Shown here piece by piece: positions 3,111-11,812 of a stretch of DNA of 64,000 nucleotides (the stretch's first letter is position 1; every line of letters begins with the position of its first letter). Source of the stretch: Parafrankia elaeagni (GTDB lineage: Bacteria > Actinomycetota > Actinomycetes > Frankiales > Frankiaceae). Under the pieces are notes generated by a model. That model was not told the origin of the DNA, did not search any database, and saw nothing but the letters and a program-made list of their open reading frames with translations. The DNA lies in assembly GCF_000374165.1 (NCBI RefSeq), contig NZ_KB893724.1, forward strand, positions 32,321-96,320, written 5' to 3'. A program made the position numbers and the translations under genes.

Positions 3111-4196
3111 TCAGCCGGCCGTGAGGGCCTGCCGGCGACGGCGGGCGATCTCCGCCAGTGCGACGCCGGCCGCGACACCGGCGTTCAGCGACTCCGTGGC
3201 TCCCGCCATCGGAATCCGGACCCTGAGGTCACAGCATTCACCGACCAGCCGGGAGAGCCCGCGGCCCTCCGACCCGACAACGACGACCAGCGGGTCGGTG
3301 GCGACCTCCAGGTCGTCGAGGCTGACCTCGCCGTCCGCCGCCAGACCCGCGACGAACAGGCCCGCTTCGGCGTACGACCGCAGCGTGCGGGTCAGATTCA
3401 CGGCGCGCGCGACCGGCAGCCGCGCCGCCGCGCCCGCGGACGTCTTCCAGGCCGCCGCGGTCATGCCGGCGGCGCGCCGCTCCGGCACCACCACCCCGGT
3501 CGCGCCGAAGGCGGCTGCCGAGCGGACGACCGCCCCGAGGTTGCGCGGGTCGGTGACGCCGTCGAGTGCGACGACGAGGCCGGGCTGCGCGCCGCGGGTG
3601 GCCGCGGCCAACAGGTCGTCCGGGTGGGCATAGCTGTACGGCGGGACCGTCAGCGCCAGCCCCTGGTGCGGGGCGTTCGGGCAGAGCCGGTCGAGCTCGA
3701 TCCGCCCGATGTCGACGACGCTCAGCCCGGCCCGGCCGGCGAGACGGCGGGCGTCGGCGACCCGCTCGTCGAAGTCGAGACCGCCGGCGATCAGCAGCGT
3801 GGTCGCCGGCACGCCGGCACGCAGCGCCTCGACCACAGCGTTGCGGCCGACCACGTACTCGTCGGACTCGCCGCCGCGCCGTGCGGCGTACGCCGCCGAG
3901 CCGCCAGCCGGGCCCGCCGCCCCCGCGCCGGCGCCGCCGCCGGCGGCACGCTCCGCCCCGGGACGCCCACGCGCCCCCCGGGTGGCCGCGTTCGCCGCCG
4001 CGGCTGCCCGGCGCTGGGCCGGATGGCCCGGCCGCATCTGCGCCGGCGGTGTCGCGCCCTTGCCCTCCAGCGCCTTGCGGCGCTGCCCGCCGCTGCCGAG
4101 CGCCGCGCCCTTACGGTGGGAGCCCGCCTTCCCGGCCCGGCCCCCCTGCCCACCGCGGGCGATGCCGCCACCGCCCCGGCCCTGGCCACCGGCCAT
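3111..4196 (-). CDS. rlmB: 23S rRNA (guanosine-2'-O-)-methyltransferase, TrmH/SpoU family
   Basis: 361 residues. The start is ATG at 4194-4196 with GAGGTGG 6 nt upstream; the longer GTG at 4214 lacks a site. RlmB methylates the ribose of a conserved G in the 23S rRNA peptidyl-transferase region with SAM. Residues ~1-110 are a basic, Gly-rich tail typical of actinobacterial members. Then comes the SpoU substrate-binding domain ([15 protein letters not shown]) and the SPOUT knot with motif 1 NLGAVVRSA, motif 2 GSEGRGL and motif 3 [13 protein letters not shown], all intact. In most actinobacteria rlmB directly follows cysS; here 5.4 kb of plus-strand signalling genes separate them, so rlmB must have its own promoter in the divergent region 4197-4549. 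Confidence 0.93.
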
Positions 4197-4549
4197 CACA
4201 GACCACCTCGTCACTCACGCGTCGGGCCGTCGACCCGTCTGCGAGCCAACGATCATCAGACCGCACCCGGGTGCCGGCGCAGGCCGGCGGGGTGTTGTCG
4301 TCCATCAACGGTATCCGCCGACATCACGCCACGCGGCGGACACCGTCACCGGCGCCCCTCGGCACCTCCACGCCCCGCCGGGCGCCGGAACCACGGCCCC
4401 GATCGGCCCAGACGGGCCCAGGCCGGCCCGCGGCCGCGCCGACCGGCCGCGCCGACCGGCCGCGCCGACCGGCCGCGACTGACCCGGTCGGGGCACCAGT
4501 TGGCCAGGACGTACGCCGGAGCGGCGCCTTGCTACCTATCCTCAGGGTG

Positions 4550-5824
4550 ATGCGCGGACCGACATCTGGAGGGCAGGTGGCAGGCTTCTCCGGAGCGGGA
4601 GCGACGGATTCCGACCCGTCCGGCGCTCGCCCTCCCACCCGGTCCCACACCCATGCCCGCGCCACCGCTGCCGGCGCCTGGCGACGGGCACACCCCGCCG
4701 TCTCCTGCCCGGTCTGCGCCAGCCCACTGGGCCGCGCCGCCGGCCGCGGCGCCGGCCGGGCCGGCGCCGGTGGGCACCTGCGGGAGAGCGGCTTCTGCCC
4801 GCGCTGCCGGACGCCCTACTCCTTCGCACCGCCGCTGCGCGCCGGGGACGTCGCCGGCGGCTACGAGATCGTCGACTGCCTGGGCGCCGGAGGCCCGGGG
4901 CCAGGCGGCTGGGTCTTCCTCGCCGTCGCGCCCGGCGGCCCGGTGGGCGCCGGGCGGCGGGTGGTACTCAAGAGCCTGCGGCGAGCGGGGGCACGCCCGG
5001 CCCCGCTGAGCACGCGGTTCTCCCGACGCCCGCTGCCGGATCCCCCACTGCGGCATCCGGCGATCGTGGAGACCCTCGGCGAGGTGCGGCACGGCAACAT
5101 CGTCTACACGGTGATGGACTTCGTGCCCGGCCCGTCGCTGGCGGAGCTGCTGCGGTCCAGGCGGCTCACCCGCGGCGCGGCGGGCGCACCGCTGCCTGTC
5201 CCGGACGGGATCGCCGGCGCCCTGCGGCTGCTCTCCGCCCTGCGGTACGTGCACGAACGCGGCTACGTCCACGGCGACCTCGCGCCGGGCAACGTGGTCT
5301 GGAACGGCGACCAGGTGACGCTGATCGATCTCCAGTCGGTGCGCCAGCTCGGCCGGCGCTGCGGGGCCTTCCACGTCACGGCTGGATTCGACGCCCCCGA
5401 GCTCGCCATGAGGCCCCCGTCGGTGGGTTCTGACCTCTACGCTCTCGGCAGGCTCTTGGCAACCGCGGTGCTCGATTTTCCACACCGTGCGTCAACATAT
5501 CGCTACGCTCTTCCGGCGGAGGAGGTCCACCAGGTGCTGGCCCGGAACGAATCCCTGCACCGGTTCCTCCTTCGTGCCACCGCGACCGATCCCGCGCGGA
5601 GGTTCGGCACCGCCGGTGACATGACCGCGGCGCTCGCCGCGGTGGCGGCGAACGCTGCGCCGCAGCGCCCCGCCGACGCCGAGCCTCGCCCGGCCGGAGC
5701 CCAGCAGAGGCCGCTGACCAGGCAAAAGGCCTGGGGGGCAGCGGAGGTTCCGGAGCACGCGCGGGCGGCGGGCGTACTGCAGGGGAGAACTTCCGGCATT
5801 CCACGCAGGACGGGCGGACGTTGA
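4550..5824 (+). CDS. PknG-like Ser/Thr protein kinase with N-terminal zinc ribbon, no TPR domain
   Basis: About 424 residues. A four-Cys zinc ribbon (CPVC at 53-56, CPRC at 83-86) precedes a kinase domain most like mycobacterial PknG: glycine loop GAGGPGPGGWVF (112-123), VVLK (K141), HPAIV, YTVMDFVPG hinge, catalytic HGDLAPGN (D243, N248), metal-binding LIDLQ (D260) and a GFDAPEL activation segment. PknG also has a Cys-rich N-terminus and DL rather than DFG. The alphaC glutamate that should pair with K141 is not evident (segment PLPDPPLRHPAIV), and the C-terminal TPR domain of PknG is missing. Start uncertain: ATG 4550 has no ribosome site but a TATCCT element at 4537-4542 fits a leaderless transcript; GTG 4577 has GGAGGG only 3 nt upstream. 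First gene of the kinase/PP2C/FHA cassette. Confidence 0.8.
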   Translation: MRGPTSGGQVAGFSGAGATDSDPSGARPPTRSHTHARATAAGAWRRAHPAVSCPVCASPLGRAAGRGAGRAGAGGHLRESGFCPRCRTPYSFAPPLRAGDVAGGYEIVDCLGAGGPGPGGWVFLAVAPGGPVGAGRRVVLKSLRRAGARPAPLSTRFSRRPLPDPPLRHPAIVETLGEVRHGNIVYTVMDFVPGPSLAELLRSRRLTRGAAGAPLPVPDGIAGALRLLSALRYVHERGYVHGDLAPGNVVWNGDQVTLIDLQSVRQLGRRCGAFHVTAGFDAPELAMRPPSVGSDLYALGRLLATAVLDFPHRASTYRYALPAEEVHQVLARNESLHRFLLRATATDPARRFGTAGDMTAALAAVAANAAPQRPADAEPRPAGAQQRPLTRQKAWGAAEVPEHARAAGVLQGRTSGIPRRTGGR

Positions 5825-6044
5825 CACCGAGGCAGACACCGAGATCACCGGCGTCGACGCACCTGGCGGACCATGCCACTATTCATCTCGGCGTCCTTGG
5901 ATCTGAGCAGGTCGACGTGATATATCCGGTCCCCACAGGACGGGCAGGAGGCACTTACCACATGGCTCCGCGCCAGACGGCTCCGCGCATACCGCCCAGA
6001 CTCGCTGTCACTGGCGGGCCGCTGCCGCGGCCGGTGGCCTGACT

Positions 6045-7613
6045 GTGGACCTCAACCCCCGCCCGGGGCAGAGCTATCCCGGGCACGGCTACCCGCCGGA
6101 GAGCCCGGGTGCCCCCCGCCCCGGTGACGGCTACCCCGACGAGTCGGGCCAGCAGGGCCGGTACCAGGGTGGCGATCTGCCGCCGGAGGGCTACCCGACG
6201 GAGGAGTTCCGTCCGGAGCACCGCGGGGAGGCCTACGCCGCGGGCCACTTCCAGGACGCGCCCTATTCCGGGAACGGCTACCCCGAGAACAGCTACGGCG
6301 AGGGCGGCTACCCGGAGAACGCCGGCTACCCGGAGAGCGGCTATCCGGGCGGCGCGGCCTATCCCGGTGCCGGCTACCAGGCAGAATCGGGCACCTATCG
6401 GGACAGCGAGTACCGGGATGGTTACACGGAGCGCGGTTACGAGGCTGGGACCTACCCGCCCGGCGGTTATTCGGACGGTGACTACTCCGGCGGCGGATTC
6501 ACCGACGACGGGTACAGCCCCGACTCCGATCCCGCCACGATGCTCCTGGGCCACCGCGCCTCGCCGGTGAGCGAGTCCGCTGCCGGTGAGGAGGTCGTCC
6601 GCTGCCCGGTGTGCGCGGCGCCCAACTACAGCGACGCGCGGTACTGCGAGGCGTGCGGCTTCGCCTTCACCGGCGCGCCGGTGGGTGGCGGCGACGCGGA
6701 CCACCGCGAGATCGACCTGGGCCCGCTGGCCGGGGTGTGCGACCGCGGGGTCCGGCACACGACGAACGAGGACTCGATGGGCGTGGCGATCGTCCACGGA
6801 ACGCTCATCGCCGTGGTCTGTGACGGCGTCTCGACGACCCCGGGTTCCGGCGAGGCGTCCGCGGCAGCCACCTCGACCGCGACGGCGATCCTCGCGGACG
6901 CGGTGCGCGCCCACGGGCCCGGCGAGACCGTCCCGTACGAGGAGCGCACCGAAAGCTCCGCGAACGATGTTCTGGACGTCCTGGAGGAGTACACCGAGTA
7001 CGACGAGCCGCGTACCGCGCCGCGCCGGATCTCCGGAGGTTTCGGCCCGGACGAGGCCGACGCCGCCCTGCACGCCGCGGTCGAGGCTGCCCAGGCCACC
7101 ATCGCCCAGCTCAGCGCGGCCGAGGGCCGGATGGCTCCGTCCTGCACCATCGCCGCGGCGATCATCACCCCACCCTCGGTGGACGGCCCGGGCATGGTCA
7201 CCGTCGGCTGGGTCGGCGACAGCCGGGTCTACCTGCTCGGTCCGCGCTGGTGCGAGCGGCTGACCGCGGACGACACCTGGGCGGCCGAGGCGGCCCGCGC
7301 CGGGCTGATCCCCGCCTCGGAGGCCGAGACGCACCGGCGTGCCCACACCCTGACCCGCTGGCTGGGTGGCGACGCCGAGGACGTCACCCCGCATACGGCC
7401 GCCTTCCCGATCGAGACGCCGGCCACGGTGCTCGTCTGCAGCGACGGGCTGTGGAACTACTCCTCCCGGCCGGACGTGCTCGCCGCGCTGGTGAACCAGC
7501 TCGACCCCGGCGCCGCCGCGCTGGACGTCGCCCGCCACCTCACCGACTTCGCGATCGACCAGGGCGGCCATGACAACATCACCGTGGTCGCGGCCAGGGT
7601 GACCAGTCAGTGA
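6045..7613 (+). CDS. PP2C-type Ser/Thr protein phosphatase with zinc ribbon and Gly-Tyr-Pro-rich N-terminus
   Basis: 522 residues from a GTG without a clear ribosome site. Residues 1-165 are low complexity, rich in GYP, GGY and acidic residues. A four-Cys zinc ribbon follows (C187, C190, then CEAC), then a PPM/PP2C phosphatase domain (~222-520) with the metal-site motifs RHTTNEDS, CDGVSTT, GWVGDSRVY, CSDGLW and HDNITVV, so catalysis is expected. It should dephosphorylate Ser/Thr in partners of the adjacent kinase, with the FHA protein as the natural phospho-Thr reader. Gap to the kinase gene is 220 nt; the downstream gap to the FHA gene holds a coding remnant. Disordered Tyr/Gly-rich tails like this can drive self-association, but that is inference. 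Confidence 0.88.
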   Translation: MDLNPRPGQSYPGHGYPPESPGAPRPGDGYPDESGQQGRYQGGDLPPEGYPTEEFRPEHRGEAYAAGHFQDAPYSGNGYPENSYGEGGYPENAGYPESGYPGGAAYPGAGYQAESGTYRDSEYRDGYTERGYEAGTYPPGGYSDGDYSGGGFTDDGYSPDSDPATMLLGHRASPVSESAAGEEVVRCPVCAAPNYSDARYCEACGFAFTGAPVGGGDADHREIDLGPLAGVCDRGVRHTTNEDSMGVAIVHGTLIAVVCDGVSTTPGSGEASAAATSTATAILADAVRAHGPGETVPYEERTESSANDVLDVLEEYTEYDEPRTAPRRISGGFGPDEADAALHAAVEAAQATIAQLSAAEGRMAPSCTIAAAIITPPSVDGPGMVTVGWVGDSRVYLLGPRWCERLTADDTWAAEAARAGLIPASEAETHRRAHTLTRWLGGDAEDVTPHTAAFPIETPATVLVCSDGLWNYSSRPDVLAALVNQLDPGAAALDVARHLTDFAIDQGGHDNITVVAARVTSQ

Positions 7614-7693
7614 CCTTCCACGGCCGGCCGGAAACGGCCCGGGGCGGGGATGCCCGGCCGTCGACCGCGGCGACACGGCTGCCAGACCGGTGA

Positions 7694-7879
7694 TCCGGCC
7701 AGGCGATTCGGGAGGCCCTCACCTGGGGCAACGACGCAACCCACCGCCTCCTACAGGAGGCGGTTCACATCGACATTCCAACAACGGGTACGGTTCGTCT
7801 GAAGAAATACGTCGAGAAGATGGACGAGATGGTCCGCGACTCGTCGATGTCGGCCAGGACCGTTCGGGTGAACAGGTGA
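7694..7879 (+). pseudogene. Probable remnant of a lost gene (VWA-like C-terminal tail)
   Basis: Between the PP2C and FHA genes the frame 7694-7879 is open for 61 codons, has no ATG/GTG start before residue ~43, and is preceded by an in-frame TGA at 7691. Its translation reads like a real protein tail rather than a shadow: LLQEAVHIDIPTTGTVRLKK, then KMDEMVRD and RTVRVNR before the stop, with balanced Lys/Glu/Asp content. Relatives of this cassette commonly carry a von Willebrand factor A gene here, and I recall similar TVRL...DEM...TVR endings in that family, so I infer that the body of a VWA gene was deleted and the tail kept. The stop lies 4 nt before the FHA start, as expected of a former operon partner. 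Confidence 0.45.
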
Positions 7880-7883
7880 TCAG

Positions 7884-9473
7884 GTGAGCGCACGCTGCCC
7901 GGAGGGGCACCTGTCCCACGATCCTGACTACTGCGATCAGTGCGGGCTACGGATCGTGGGCGGTCAGGATCGTTATGGTTTCCGCCAGGACGATGGCGGC
8001 CGTGATCCCGCGTACCCGGCGGGCGCACCCGCCGGCCGGGCGGCGGACCCGTACGCGCGACGGGCACCGGAGCGGGACCCGTCGGTTCCGCCGGGTCCCG
8101 ACGGCGCCCAGGGCGGCTACGACCCGCTCGGGATCCGGCGCGCGCCGGCCGACGCCCCCGGGGTGGCGGACCCGCCCCGCGGCGCGGGCCGCGGCGGTGA
8201 CCCGTACGGCGGCTACGGCCGCGAGGGCTACGCCGAGGAACCGCGCTCCGCTCGCGGTGGCTACCCGGCGGACCCGTACGCCCGCGAGGGCTACGGGCGG
8301 CCGGAGGAGCGCGGGCGTCCCGACGCCCGCGGTGAGCGGCACGACCCGTACGGGCGTGAGCCCGACGAGCGCGGCGCCGGCTTCGGCGGCCGTGACGACC
8401 GGACACCACCCGGGTACGGCCGCGAGAGCCGGGACGGGCGGGACGGGCGGGGCGGCTACCCCGTCGGGCGCGCCGAGCCCGACGGCGGGTTTCCCCGCGG
8501 CCGTGACGACCGCGGCGGCTACGGCGGGCCTGAGGGCCGGCCCGACGGCCGCGGCGGGTACGGCGCGGGCGAGCCGGCCCGGGTTGCCCCGGACGCCGAC
8601 CCCCGGCGCGGCTACCGCGACGGCGGGTCGTTCGGTGCACCGCCCGGCGGCGGCTACGGCGCCGACCCACTGGGCGCGGCGGGCGCCGGCTCCACGCCGG
8701 TGCCGGCGGGGCCTGCCGGGCCGGGTGTCCGGGACCGTGCTGCCGACCGCTACGCGCCCTGCCCCAACTGCCGGTCGCTGAACGACCCGTCCGCACGCTT
8801 CTGCGAGAACTGCGGGCTCGACTTCAGCACCGGCCAGCTGCCCGCCCCGGCGGGCGCCGCCGGGCTCGACGACGCGGGTGTCACCTCGCGGCAGCCCGGG
8901 CCGCGGCGCGGCCAGGAGGCCCGCCACGCCACCGATCCGAGGATGGCCGACCCACGCCTCGGTGACCCCCGGCTGGCCGACCCGCGACTGGCCGACCCGC
9001 GGATCGGCGAGCAGCGCCGCGACGACCCCAGGATGGGCGACCCGCGCGCGGGGAGCCGGGGCCACGACTGGGACGCGCCGCAGGCCGGCACCTGGGAGGC
9101 TGTCGTCGAGGCCGAGCGGGAGTACTACGACAGCGGCGACGACCACCGCGTCCCGTTCCCGGCCTTCTACCCGCGCCGAGTCTTCGCGCTGACCGAGTCG
9201 CAGATGCTCATCGGGCGGCGCAGCGAGTCCCGGGGCATCAACCCGGAGATCGACCTGTCGGGCGCGCCGGAGGACCCGGGGATCTCCCGGGCCCACGCGA
9301 CGCTGGAGCGGATGCCCGACGGAACGTACGCCGTCCGGGACCCGGGGTCGACCAACGGAACCCGGCTGAACGACGAGCCCGACCCGATCGAGCCCGGCCG
9401 CCCGATCCCGCTGCGCGACGGCGATCGCGTCTATGTCGGCGCCTGGACGAGGATCACCGTCCGCGCGCAGTGA
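7884..9473 (+). CDS. FHA domain protein with two zinc-ribbon motifs
   Basis: 529 residues from a GTG; the start is fixed by the N-terminal Zn motif (C5, H9, C17, C20), which is usual at the very N-terminus of this family. A second ribbon (CPNC at 293-296, CENC at ~308-311) follows ~270 residues of Arg/Asp/Gly-rich disordered sequence. A run of ADPRLGDPR-like repeats (8934-9050) leads to the C-terminal FHA domain (~425-529) with the phospho-Thr-binding signature: GRRSESRG, SRAHATLE and STNGTRLN. FHA domains bind pThr peptides; next to a kinase and a PP2C phosphatase it is the likely reader or scaffold of the cassette. It ends 127 nt before the convergent cysS stop, with a bidirectional terminator between. 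Confidence 0.88.
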   Translation: MSARCPEGHLSHDPDYCDQCGLRIVGGQDRYGFRQDDGGRDPAYPAGAPAGRAADPYARRAPERDPSVPPGPDGAQGGYDPLGIRRAPADAPGVADPPRGAGRGGDPYGGYGREGYAEEPRSARGGYPADPYAREGYGRPEERGRPDARGERHDPYGREPDERGAGFGGRDDRTPPGYGRESRDGRDGRGGYPVGRAEPDGGFPRGRDDRGGYGGPEGRPDGRGGYGAGEPARVAPDADPRRGYRDGGSFGAPPGGGYGADPLGAAGAGSTPVPAGPAGPGVRDRAADRYAPCPNCRSLNDPSARFCENCGLDFSTGQLPAPAGAAGLDDAGVTSRQPGPRRGQEARHATDPRMADPRLGDPRLADPRLADPRIGEQRRDDPRMGDPRAGSRGHDWDAPQAGTWEAVVEAEREYYDSGDDHRVPFPAFYPRRVFALTESQMLIGRRSESRGINPEIDLSGAPEDPGISRAHATLERMPDGTYAVRDPGSTNGTRLNDEPDPIEPGRPIPLRDGDRVYVGAWTRITVRAQ

Positions 9474-9600: not shown

Positions 9601-11124
9601 TCAGGCGAGGTGCCAGCGCTGGCCTTCGGGCGCGTCCTCGATGACGACGCCGGCGGCGGCGAGCCGCGAGCGGATCGAGTCCGCCTCGGAGTAGTCCCGC
9701 CGGGCCCTCGCCGCCGAACGCAGATCGAGCAGGACGTCCATGACGCCGTCGAGCGCCGGGCGCAGCTCGGCGCCGGCTGTCGGCCACTGCTCCACCGGGT
9801 CGAGCCCGAGCACGGTGAGCATCCGGCGGGTGACGTCGACCCAGCCGGCCAGTTCCCGGCTGTGCGTCTTGGAAAGCACCTGGTTGCCGCGGCCGACCAC
9901 GCCGAACAGCGCCGCCAGCGCACGGCCGACCGAGAGATCGTCGTCCAGCGCCGCCGCGAACTCGGCCCAGGCCTGACGGGGCGTCAGGTCATCGCCTGCG
10001 GGCGCGGCCGCAGCCGCCAGCCTCCCGGGCGGCAGGCCCCGCTGCGCCGGCCCCGCGGGACCGCCTCCCGGATCCGTGCCGTCGCGGTCGGTCTCCGCGG
10101 CGAGCGCGGCGGCCTCGTCCGGCCCGCCCAGGATGTCGAGGGCGTTGCGGACGAACGTCTCCACCCGGTCGTGCGCCGCGCCGGACTCGTCGAGCGTCTG
10201 CGCGCTGTACTCCAGCGAGGAGCGGTAGTGCGCCGAGAGAAGGTGGTAGCGCAGCACCTGCGGGCGGACCGCGGCGAGCGCGTCCGTCACGAAGAACGAG
10301 TTGCCCAGCGACTTGGACATCTTGGTGCCGCCGGTGGTCAGCAGACCCACGTGCAGCCAGTAGTTGGCCATCTCGGCGGTGTCTGGACCACCAGCCGAGC
10401 AGACGGTCTGGGCACGCTCGTTCTCGTGGTGTGGGAAGACCAGATCGAGCCCACCGCCGTGGATGTCGAAGACGTCACCGAGGTACTTGCCCGCCATCGC
10501 CGAGCACTCCAGGTGCCAGCCGGGACGGCCAGGCCCCCAGGGCGACGACCAGGAGGGCTCACCGGGCCGCGCCGCCTTCCACAGGGCGAAGTCCCGGGGA
10601 TCGGACTTGCCCGGCTCGGCCTCCGGAGACGGGTGCATCGACGCGGGCCGCTGGTGGGACAGGGCACCGTAGTCCGCGTAGGAGCCGACCCGGAACCACA
10701 CCGAGCCCGCGCCCGGGTAGGCCAGCCCCCGCTCCACCAGGACCGAGACCATCTCCAGCATCTCCGGGATGTGCCCGGTGGCACGCGGGGAGATCGTCGG
10801 TGGCAGGACGCCGACAGCCCGGTAGGCCTCGTCGAACGCCCTGGTCTGCCGGGTGGCGAGCTCCCAGACGGTGGTGCCCGCGAGGTCCGCGTTGACGATG
10901 ATCTTGTCGTCGATGTCGGTGACGTTCTGCACGAAGGTCACCGCGAGCCCGCCCTGCGTCATCCACCGCCGCAGCAGGTCGAACGCCAGCGCGGTGCGGA
11001 TATGGCCCACATGCGGCGGTGACTGGACGGTGGGCCCACACACGTACACGCCCACATGACCGGGGCGCAGCGGCACGAACGGCCGCACGCGCCGGGTGCG
11101 CGTGTCATAGAGGCGAAGACCCAT
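9601..11124 (-). CDS. cysS: Cysteinyl-tRNA synthetase
   Basis: 507 residues, class I synthetase charging tRNA-Cys. Visible: zinc ligand C29 in YVCGPTV, the HIGH motif as HVGH (38-41), the zinc/anticodon-proximal signatures [12 protein letters not shown] and [15 protein letters not shown], and KMSKSLGN (268-275). A low-complexity Gly/Pro/Ala insertion of ~35 residues lies between the catalytic core and the DALR-like helical domain ([14 protein letters not shown]). ATG start at 11122-11124; no ribosome site, but TACCCT ends 6 nt upstream and would suit a leaderless transcript. In related genomes cysS is followed directly by rlmB; here the signalling cassette intervenes. It could also be the mycothiol ligase MshC, but length, the KMSKSLGN context and the isp neighbours favour cysS. 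Confidence 0.94.
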
Positions 11125-11267: not shown

Positions 11268-11660
11268 TCAGCCCGTGGTGAGGACGCGCTCCGCGATGAC
11301 GCGGATCACCAGCCTGACCTCGTCCGGCCCGTCCCAGCCGTACGGAGAGCCGGTGTACTTCGTGGACAGCAGGTCGATGAGCTCCTTGCCGCCCTCCTCG
11401 GAGAGCGAGGCCACACCGCGGATCTCGACGTAGGCGTACGGGTCGCGCTGGTCGAGAAACATCAGGCCGACCCGAGGGTCCCGGGCGATGTCCCGCTCCT
11501 TGGCCCGGCCGCGCACCGTCGACAACAACAGGTCGTCACCGTCCCGCGCGATCCAGAGCACGGTGAGGCGCGGCGCGCCGTCCGGACGGATCGTCGCCAG
11601 CGTCACGTAGGTCGGAGCATCCGCGAGTGCCCTGACCGCCTCCGGGAGCCGCGCCGCCAT
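11268..11660 (-). CDS. PPOX-class (pyridoxamine oxidase-like split-barrel) flavin/F420 protein
   Basis: 130 residues from ATG 11658-11660, chosen because GGAGG lies 6 nt upstream; the ORF could extend 11 codons. The pattern YVTLATIRPDGAPRLTVLW, then RAKERDIARDPRVGLMFLD and YAYVEIRGVASL, is that of small actinobacterial PPOX proteins that bind F420 or FMN. F420-dependent reduction or heme/biliverdin binding are known activities in the family; the substrate here cannot be told. It lies between cysS and ispF, where many actinobacteria have nothing, on the same strand but with 143-152 nt gaps, so it may not be co-transcribed. Confidence 0.85.
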   Translation of the reverse strand: MAARLPEAVRALADAPTYVTLATIRPDGAPRLTVLWIARDGDDLLLSTVRGRAKERDIARDPRVGLMFLDQRDPYAYVEIRGVASLSEEGGKELIDLLSTKYTGSPYGWDGPDEVRLVIRVIAERVLTTG

Positions 11661-11812
11661 CACACTCCTCCGAGACTCGCTCACCGGGCACACCTTCTCA
11701 CTCCCCCAGCATCAAACTACGTCCGATGCCAGTCAGGCATGCCAACAATCCGGCAACCGCGCCTGCCACCCGGGAGCGCGAACGCCGCCGGCCGAGGCCG
11801 GCGGGAGTGGAC

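Follow-up and report, generated by a model that had tools for sequence, protein, structure and literature searches.

In Type VI secretion, a kinase, a PP2C phosphatase and an FHA protein are encoded together as the PpkA-PppA-Fha set. For the kinase PknG, the available portion of PMC6069109 describes the Actinomycetales homologues as always bearing a TPR domain, and reports that this domain is required for PknG function in M. smegmatis, while corynebacterial PknG lacks the rubredoxin-type ribbon (PMC8546545, available portion). The available parts of the PknG literature examined do not mention PP2C, vWA or FHA-module partners of PknG. Neither a PknG-PP2C-vWA-FHA module nor a PknG pseudokinase was found in the literature searched, a weak absence given that few subscription papers were covered; the nearest descriptions are in the available portions of PMC7159879 and PMC12599244, and a PknG-derived pseudokinase family was not met among the families in that portion of the latter. 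Here we describe a kinase, PP2C and FHA gene row which, at a probability of roughly 0.55, we read as a reduced descendant of the PknG-PP2C-vWA-FHA module, located between rlmB and cysS since early Frankiaceae, with the kinase turned into a non-catalytic partner.

Organization of the locus

Within the window (the whole stretch of 64,000 nucleotides that was analysed, from a Parafrankia-type soil bacterium), ORF calls and Pfam matches bear out the first-pass annotation in placing kinase, PP2C and FHA genes, all three on the plus strand, between rlmB and cysS on the minus strand:

3111..4214, minus strand: rlmB, left flank; assigned by sequence to the 23S rRNA methyltransferase family; an ORF, on the same side in relatives
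4550..5824, plus strand: PknG-derived kinase-like gene, TPR domain absent; start at GTG 4577 (favoured) or ATG 4550
4706..4807, plus strand: kinase ribbon, PknG-rubredoxin-like, Cys 53/56/83/86 (numbered from 4550)
4976..5071, plus strand: segment of the expected kinase alphaC helix, Pro-rich, helix absent in the model
5962..6042, plus strand: short ORF upstream of PP2C, with AGGAGG; its stop lies 2 nt before the PP2C start
6045..7613, plus strand: PP2C-type Ser/Thr phosphatase with an N-terminal low-complexity region and a ribbon
6603..6656, plus strand: PP2C zinc ribbon, Cys 187/190/201/204
7697..7879, plus strand: vWA gene remnant, untranslated; last 60 residues matched, 72% identity
7884..9473, plus strand: FHA protein; two ribbons, long linker of low complexity
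7896..7943, plus strand: N-terminal ribbon of the FHA protein, CxxGH...CxxCG, Cys5/His9/Cys17/Cys20
8760..8813, plus strand: second ribbon of the FHA protein, Cys 293/296/307/310
9207..9440, plus strand: FHA domain, phosphothreonine-binding GR, SxxH and NG residues present
9601..11124, minus strand: cysS, right flank

The arrangement of short ORF and AGGAGG upstream of PP2C was seen in 13 of the 21 genomes tried. At the start of the kinase gene, GGAGGG followed by GTG or TTG (GTG 4577 in the window) is kept in five of the seven genus members, and the nearest of them has ACG in place of ATG 4550; three others have an ATG near that position, and two (G018 and G020) differ in sequence in this region. 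GTG 4577 is tentatively preferred over ATG 4550 as the kinase start. Initial queries gave no vWA match in the window, and the remnant emerged when the vWA of the genus itself was used as query: it reads in frame to the stop and has no start codon. The vWA gene is whole in two of the seven genus members, and an untranslated end piece lies between PP2C and FHA in all five that lack it. Further along, an extra small gene, tentatively labelled oxidase-like, lies between ispF and cysS (11268-11693).

A kinase without TPR domain and parts of its active site

The kinase domain is closest to PknG, which provides its best PDB and fold matches, the fold-match listing containing PknG and other kinases. 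PF16918 (TPR) has no match in the window kinase, nor at the window locus in the genome search, and 57 residues follow the kinase domain. The corresponding stretch measures 29-84 residues in all eight TPR-less kinases, namely those of the seven genus genomes and of the HOG45C MAG (G035), and 324-386 residues in all 63 TPR-bearing homologues. A TPR remnant between kinase and PP2C was not found at any of the eight TPR-less loci (best of 31 matches, E 0.013). A frameshift or assembly artefact is unlikely to be the cause, since the short form recurs in 7/7 genus genomes and in the HOG45C MAG. Judged by their sequences, these TPR-less kinases are exceptions to the description of PknG as always TPR-bearing.

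Under closer inspection, the losses extend into the active site. The alphaC Glu is present in 63/63 TPR-bearing homologues and in none of the eight TPR-less kinases; the catalytic-loop Lys and the DLG Gly are each found in 62/63 of the former and 1/8 of the latter, and all three residues are absent along with the TPR in 7/7 genus kinases. The G-loop of the genus kinases carries a 3-residue insertion that is absent from the 17 other kinases of the same table, and the HOG45C kinase is less degenerate than those of the genus. In the AlphaFold model of the window kinase (mean pLDDT 84), the alphaC helix is missing and certainty is lowest precisely there (residues 96-109 below 50), whereas a full-length control relative from the same 21-row alignment has a helix at 86-100. 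Taken together, the kinase lacks its sensor-docking end and parts of the active site, and its ordinary function is probably lost. The notion of a PknG-like kinase without TPR, part of a trimmed PknG-type module, is supported and extended; that of a complete writer-eraser-reader set finds no support, because several catalytic elements are gone from the kinase, leaving a writer predicted to be impaired. Some kinase activity is nonetheless possible, since the beta3 Lys, catalytic Asp, Asn, metal Asp and APE Glu are retained in 8/8 TPR-less kinases.

PP2C, FHA protein and zinc ribbons

The phosphatase scores 35.1 bits against PF13672, above the cut-off of 24, and its NED, DG, DG and DN motifs, which we take to be the metal-binding Asp motifs, are invariant in a 10-row alignment. 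The FHA protein scores 46.1 bits against PF00498, above the cut-off of 20.7, and the GR, SxxH and NG residues, named as the phosphothreonine-binding FHA motif in the available portion of PMC1262709, are present in all five alignment rows. Both proteins look intact: they retain their predicted functional residues and are strongly conserved.

A four-ligand zinc-ribbon-like motif does occur in each of the three proteins, twice in the FHA protein. Every Pfam ribbon match is under the curated cut-off, and the ribbon cysteines are conserved across the aligned relatives. For the kinase, PF16919 (rubredoxin-type ribbon) reaches 21 bits against a cut-off of 28.5; the four cysteines align with PknG rows, show little or no variation in the 21-row alignment and follow a PknG-rubredoxin-like spacing, C-x2-C-x26-C-x2-C. 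The ribbon of PP2C and the second one of the FHA protein are instead short (C-x2-C-x10-C-x2-C), a difference in type that speaks against a single shared ribbon acting as a docking unit, as had been suggested. Since most products of the parent PknG(TPR)-PP2C-vWA-FHA module carry ribbons, those seen here are inherited and, all being common in that module, mark nothing special at this locus.

Parent module and age of the position

The parent is a widespread PknG(TPR)-PP2C-vWA-FHA module: among the best 80 loci listed, 52 lie outside Frankiaceae, and 50 of these have a TPR-bearing kinase ahead of PP2C. In none of the 52 does rlmB or cysS lie beside the module, so that it may have entered the rlmB-cysS spot at the base of Frankiaceae. 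Within the family, PP2C lies between rlmB and cysS, nearly always with FHA, in 15 of the 21 other-genus genomes with a fetched cysS region (rlmB presence being read in the fetched loci), and it is clearly absent only in G014. In the PP2C tree, support for the group formed by the rlmB-cysS copies is 99, and 97 once the g4 copy is counted in. The first-pass annotation had the cassette inserted into, and splitting, a conserved minus-strand series, a claim at odds with the conservation of PP2C-FHA at that place in most family genomes seen; an ancestral position in all relatives, the finding it had named as contrary to its claim, nearly holds, with G014 as the one clear exception. A recent insertion of a foreign cassette would agree with its strand, opposite to that of the flanking genes, and with the adjacency of rlmB and cysS in G014, but the GC content of the cassette falls inside the range of its surroundings, and PP2C sits at the corresponding position in four further genera, forming one PP2C group. 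Common position and PP2C tree lead us to reject such an insertion, which we regard as extremely improbable.

The kinase at this junction comes in graded states: full in two g6 genomes, shortened but with less degeneration in HOG45C, both short and degenerate in all seven genus members, and not found in seven g2 and five g7 genomes; between the flanks, 14 of the 15 other-genus loci having both gave no kinase match. In G025, a full PknG with TPR stands at the junction together with GlnX-like and GlnH-like genes, and in G023, a PknG with TPR adjoins the PP2C-vWA-FHA-cysS genes. A search of 296 genomes sampled from the class gave no close kinase relative outside the genus at a threshold of E 1e-63, which also excludes the HOG45C kinase (1.1e-60); it covered five of the seven genus genomes and, where the table shows this, scored six candidates per genome. 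The kinase tree puts the genus on a long branch and rejects neither its grouping with HOG45C (AU 0.649) nor that with two canonical PknGs (AU 0.084); because it leaves the branch unsettled, the case for descent from a junction PknG depends mainly on where the gene lies and on its partner genes.

Elsewhere in the same genome, contigs 68 and 116 encode two TPR-bearing PknGs, beside which PP2C was not found on either contig (contig 116 ends at 13 kb). The GlnX/GlnH-like proteins of contig 68 have no match in the window or at six other genus loci (the G021 contig starts at the kinase), and a coiled-coil gene was not found at the window locus. PknG phosphorylates FHA proteins of the GarA/OdhI type, and a GarA/OdhI-like gene lies elsewhere in the genome (193 bits, below the cut-off of 200). 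Contig 36 carries PP2C-vWA-FHA without any kinase, so the kinase remnant may be dispensable.

Selection and the role of the kinase

Pairwise dN/dS is 0.02-0.11 for the PP2C catalytic domain, 0.01-0.27 for the C-terminal part of the FHA protein and 0.20-0.46 for the kinase C-lobe (seven pairs); the kinase N-lobe (0.39-0.57) and tail (0.15-1.55) are relaxed. On the kinase C-lobe, purifying selection persists but is less strong than on PP2C or FHA, and the relaxed N-lobe and tail fit slow loss as well.

Slow loss is at the heart of one alternative, namely that the kinase is a functionless gene decaying toward loss and that PP2C and FHA alone matter. The lack of a kinase match at most other-genus loci, the absence of vWA from the same gene row, the less degenerate state of the HOG45C kinase and a selection weakest among the domains of the three proteins would all agree with it. 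However, the frame is open in 7/7 genus members, ribbon and C-lobe motifs are conserved, and the C-lobe dN/dS stayed within 0.20-0.46 across the seven pairs; we consider decay unlikely. We deem it just as unlikely that the shortened kinase works as an unregulated, constitutively active writer on the FHA protein or on others, with PP2C reversing its action, to make a self-contained switch in keeping with the complete set of the first-pass annotation. The ATP- and metal-binding residues kept in all TPR-less kinases, a gene order equal to that of the parent module and the purifying selection on the C-lobe argue for such activity, and some kinases do function although they lack the usual contact of the alphaC Glu, or the catalytic-loop Lys. 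Here, though, the genus members have lost alphaC Glu, catalytic-loop Lys and DLG Gly together, the modelled helix is missing where the control has it, the G-loop carries its insertion, and the N-lobe is relaxed.

We return to the reading of a reduced module with a non-catalytic kinase. The window kinase would be unresponsive to GlnX/GlnH amino-acid sensing, and its phosphotransfer would be lost or weak. The sites erased by PP2C and read by FHA would, going by gene content alone, be written in trans by a full-length PknG (contig 68 or 116) or by another kinase. The kinase remnant, with ATP and metal ligands and ribbon kept, may then be a partner of PP2C and FHA that holds or tunes them without catalysis of its own. 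It is tempting to speculate, as a tentative and rather doubtful extension, that a PknG-line kinase once engaged in nutrient sensing became a dedicated nucleotide-binding pseudokinase subunit, docking its old operon partners and controlling PP2C and FHA, in a phosphatase-centred module cross-wired to full PknGs elsewhere.

Comparison with known systems

The joint loss of the TPR, sensor genes and catalytic residues, with graded states at one place, amounts to a natural experiment on which components of the PknG module belong together, and the order PknG-PP2C-vWA-FHA, ribbons included, marks the phosphatase, the vWA protein and the reader as likely partners of PknG. With the PknG and GlnX/GlnH system of Mycobacterium and Corynebacterium, the window kinase has the kinase domain in common, together with a rubredoxin-like ribbon motif that scores below the Pfam cut-off; unlike PknG, it lacks the TPR, the alphaC Glu and other catalytic residues, and GlnX/GlnH were not found at the locus. 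From the PpkA-PppA-Fha set of Type VI secretion, the cassette differs in being flanked by rlmB and cysS, a comparison made by flanking genes alone. The GAP1-N2 systems of Actinobacteria, in the available portion of PMC7159879, also have a zinc-ribbon kinase adjoining PP2C and vWA genes, but they are linked to GTPase/GAP1 genes and their kinase is called active. Bacterial pseudokinase families (PMC12599244, available portion) have, like the window kinase, lost catalytic elements within a conserved kinase fold; the DYD pseudokinases among them also lack the alphaC Glu, whereas the ATP-binding Lys that is replaced in them is kept here. Finally, the PknG-PP2C-vWA-FHA module of actinobacteria and cyanobacteria matches the window in gene order and in the ribbons of most products, the differences being that in the window vWA is reduced to an untranslated piece and the kinase is shortened and degenerate.

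Gene content and place of the cassette

The stretch between rlmB and cysS is occupied by three genes, which run opposite to both flanks:

3111-4214, minus strand: rlmB, left flank
ending at 5824, plus strand: kinase-like gene, first of the three cassette genes
6045-7613, plus strand: PP2C gene, second cassette gene
7884-9473, plus strand: FHA gene, third cassette gene
9601-11124, minus strand: cysS, right flank

The kinase, PP2C_2 and FHA domains of the three proteins all score above the Pfam cut-offs; every ribbon match falls below its cut-off, and the ribbon cysteines are kept across the aligned relatives despite these scores. The kinase may start at either of two candidate codons, GTG at 4577 and ATG at 4550. 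The former follows GGAGGG and is kept in five of the seven genus members (as TTG in one); the latter reads ACG in the closest genome, with an ATG nearby in three others, and two genus members (G018 and G020) carry different sequence in this region. A short ORF with AGGAGG (5962-6042) ends 2 nt upstream of the PP2C start and, because an ORF of the same type precedes PP2C in 13 of 21 genomes tried (6/7 in the genus and 7/7 in g2, another genus of the family), it may encode a leader peptide coupled to PP2C translation. DPR-x units are repeated within the low-complexity region of the FHA protein (8934-9050), and their copy number varies between genomes.

Across the family, some kinase match at E 0.001 was found in 36/36 genomes, as expected for a kinase, and matches at E 1e-99 or better were confined to the seven genus genomes (64-100% identity over the main stretch). 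The cassette lies between both flanks in six of these seven, and G021 shows the cysS side only. For the other genera, the cysS region was fetched for 21 of 29 genomes, and in 15 of them PP2C sits inside the rlmB-cysS interval, both flanks being visible (seven from g2, five from g7, two from g6 and one from g4, where PP2C comes without an FHA match). Only the cysS side is visible in G023 and G024; in the HOG45C MAG (G035) the FHA end adjoins cysS and the kinase, PP2C and FHA start lie on a separate contig; in G007 and G016 the cysS region runs into a contig edge; and G014 has rlmB and cysS with the cassette absent. In the PP2C tree, the junction copies form a single group (support 99, falling to 97 when the g4 copy is included) that is separate from the second-module copies.

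A fuller parent module

At the junction of the family genome G025, we found genes for GlnX-like, GlnH-like and coiled-coil-like proteins, PknG with rubredoxin and TPR, PP2C, vWA and FHA; the PknG of G023 likewise has both rubredoxin and TPR. Kinase, PP2C and FHA are present in all seven genus loci, and a whole vWA plus a coiled-coil match in two (G018, G020). A kinase-less module on G000:C36 (L012 7030-11709) comprises a coiled-coil-like gene, PP2C, vWA and FHA, and a module of similar make-up in G020 and G018 (L171, L172) includes a full-length PknG together with genes for GlnX- and GlnH-like proteins. The coiled-coil-like protein of L012 (10033-11709), labelled from its sequence, has no Pfam match, and its relatives lie near PknG or PP2C in several modules.

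A PP2C profile scan gave 227 relatives, the best 80 of which correspond to 78 loci; 52 of these carry labels other than Frankiaceae (L110-L162 without L147). Judged by BLAST coverage, with several contigs short, a kinase with matches into the TPR part precedes PP2C in 50/52 of these loci from the best 80 (exceptions L129 and L161), vWA follows it in 43/52 and an FHA match in 42/52, and rlmB or cysS was found within the fetched DNA of 0/52. Carriers among these 52 include Streptomyces, Kitasatospora, Nocardiopsis, Promicromonospora, Sphaerisporangium, cyanobacteria and one Bryobacterales MAG. Since a loose pattern search in open frames of these loci detected ribbon patterns in 52/52 PP2Cs, 44/50 kinases and 40/42 FHA proteins, the ribbons are features of the parent module; their spacing, long in the kinase and short in PP2C and FHA, suggests two ribbon types.

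Losses from the module

In the five vWA-less genus members, window included, the PP2C-FHA gap still encodes the last ~60 residues of the genus vWA, a footprint of the missing gene. The window piece (7697-7876; 72% identity, E 4e-23 in a small search) runs to a stop at 7879, and its frame holds no start codon in the window or G017. In G022, G021 and G019 the stretch lies inside an open frame with an ATG just after PP2C and could yield a short protein. The vWA end piece has diverged too little to allow a firm test of selection (pN/pS 0.31-1.75 in pairs with synonymous changes).

The kinase has lost more than a domain. Eight kinases (the seven genus members and HOG45C) lack the TPR, with 29-84 residues after the kinase domain vs 324-386 in 63 TPR-bearing ones, and a search for a TPR remnant comparable to the vWA piece found none. 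The alphaC glutamate is present in 63/63 TPR-bearing but 0/8 TPR-less kinases, and the catalytic-loop lysine and the DLG glycine each in 62/63 but 1/8 (HOG45C). The beta3 lysine, catalytic Asp, Asn, metal Asp and APE Glu are kept in 71/71. A three-residue G-loop insertion occurs in 7/7 genus members and 0/17 other kinases tabulated. For the window kinase, AlphaFold gives a model without an alphaC helix (pLDDT 84 on average, under 50 at residues 96-109), and with the same 21 rows as input the G025 kinase (L107) has a helix at 86-100. The TPR-less HOG45C kinase (L093), with catalytic-loop Lys and DLG kept and alphaC Glu gone, possibly represents an intermediate state; the kinase tree is compatible with more than one placement of the genus branch.

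Pairwise dN/dS was computed for seven pairs (six usable for rlmB), which share genomes and are not independent. Values were 0.20-0.46 for the kinase C-lobe, 0.39-0.57 for the N-lobe, 0-0.60 for the ribbon and 0.15-1.55 for the tail; 0.02-0.11 for the PP2C ribbon and catalytic part and 0.28-0.93 for its N-terminal part; 0.01-0.27 for the FHA C-terminal part and 0.15-0.29 for its linker; and 0.12-0.16 for cysS and 0.04-0.17 for rlmB. Of the three domains, the kinase is under the weakest constraint by these ratios, yet its C-lobe is still kept.

Relation to known PknG systems

The losses, the position and the selection are matters of observation, and from the sequence we infer that kinase activity has been lost. 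The absence of the TPR coincides with that of GlnX and GlnH at the window locus, consistent with a kinase that no longer receives the GlnX/GlnH amino-acid signal. Because catalytic elements have gone as well, phosphosites would be written in trans, and the kinase remnant, if functional, would partner PP2C and FHA. Partial literature coverage yielded no prior description of a PknG-PP2C-vWA-FHA module or a PknG pseudokinase. For mycobacteria, passages of PMC6069109 propose that GlnH and GlnX relay amino-acid signals to PknG, report that PknG without the TPR gave no better growth on glutamate, and state that Actinomycetales PknGs always have the TPR. For Corynebacterium, an excerpt of PMC8546545 proposes the TPR as a GlnX scaffold, and actinobacterial zinc-ribbon kinases adjoining PP2C and vWA genes appear, in another setting, in part of PMC7159879.
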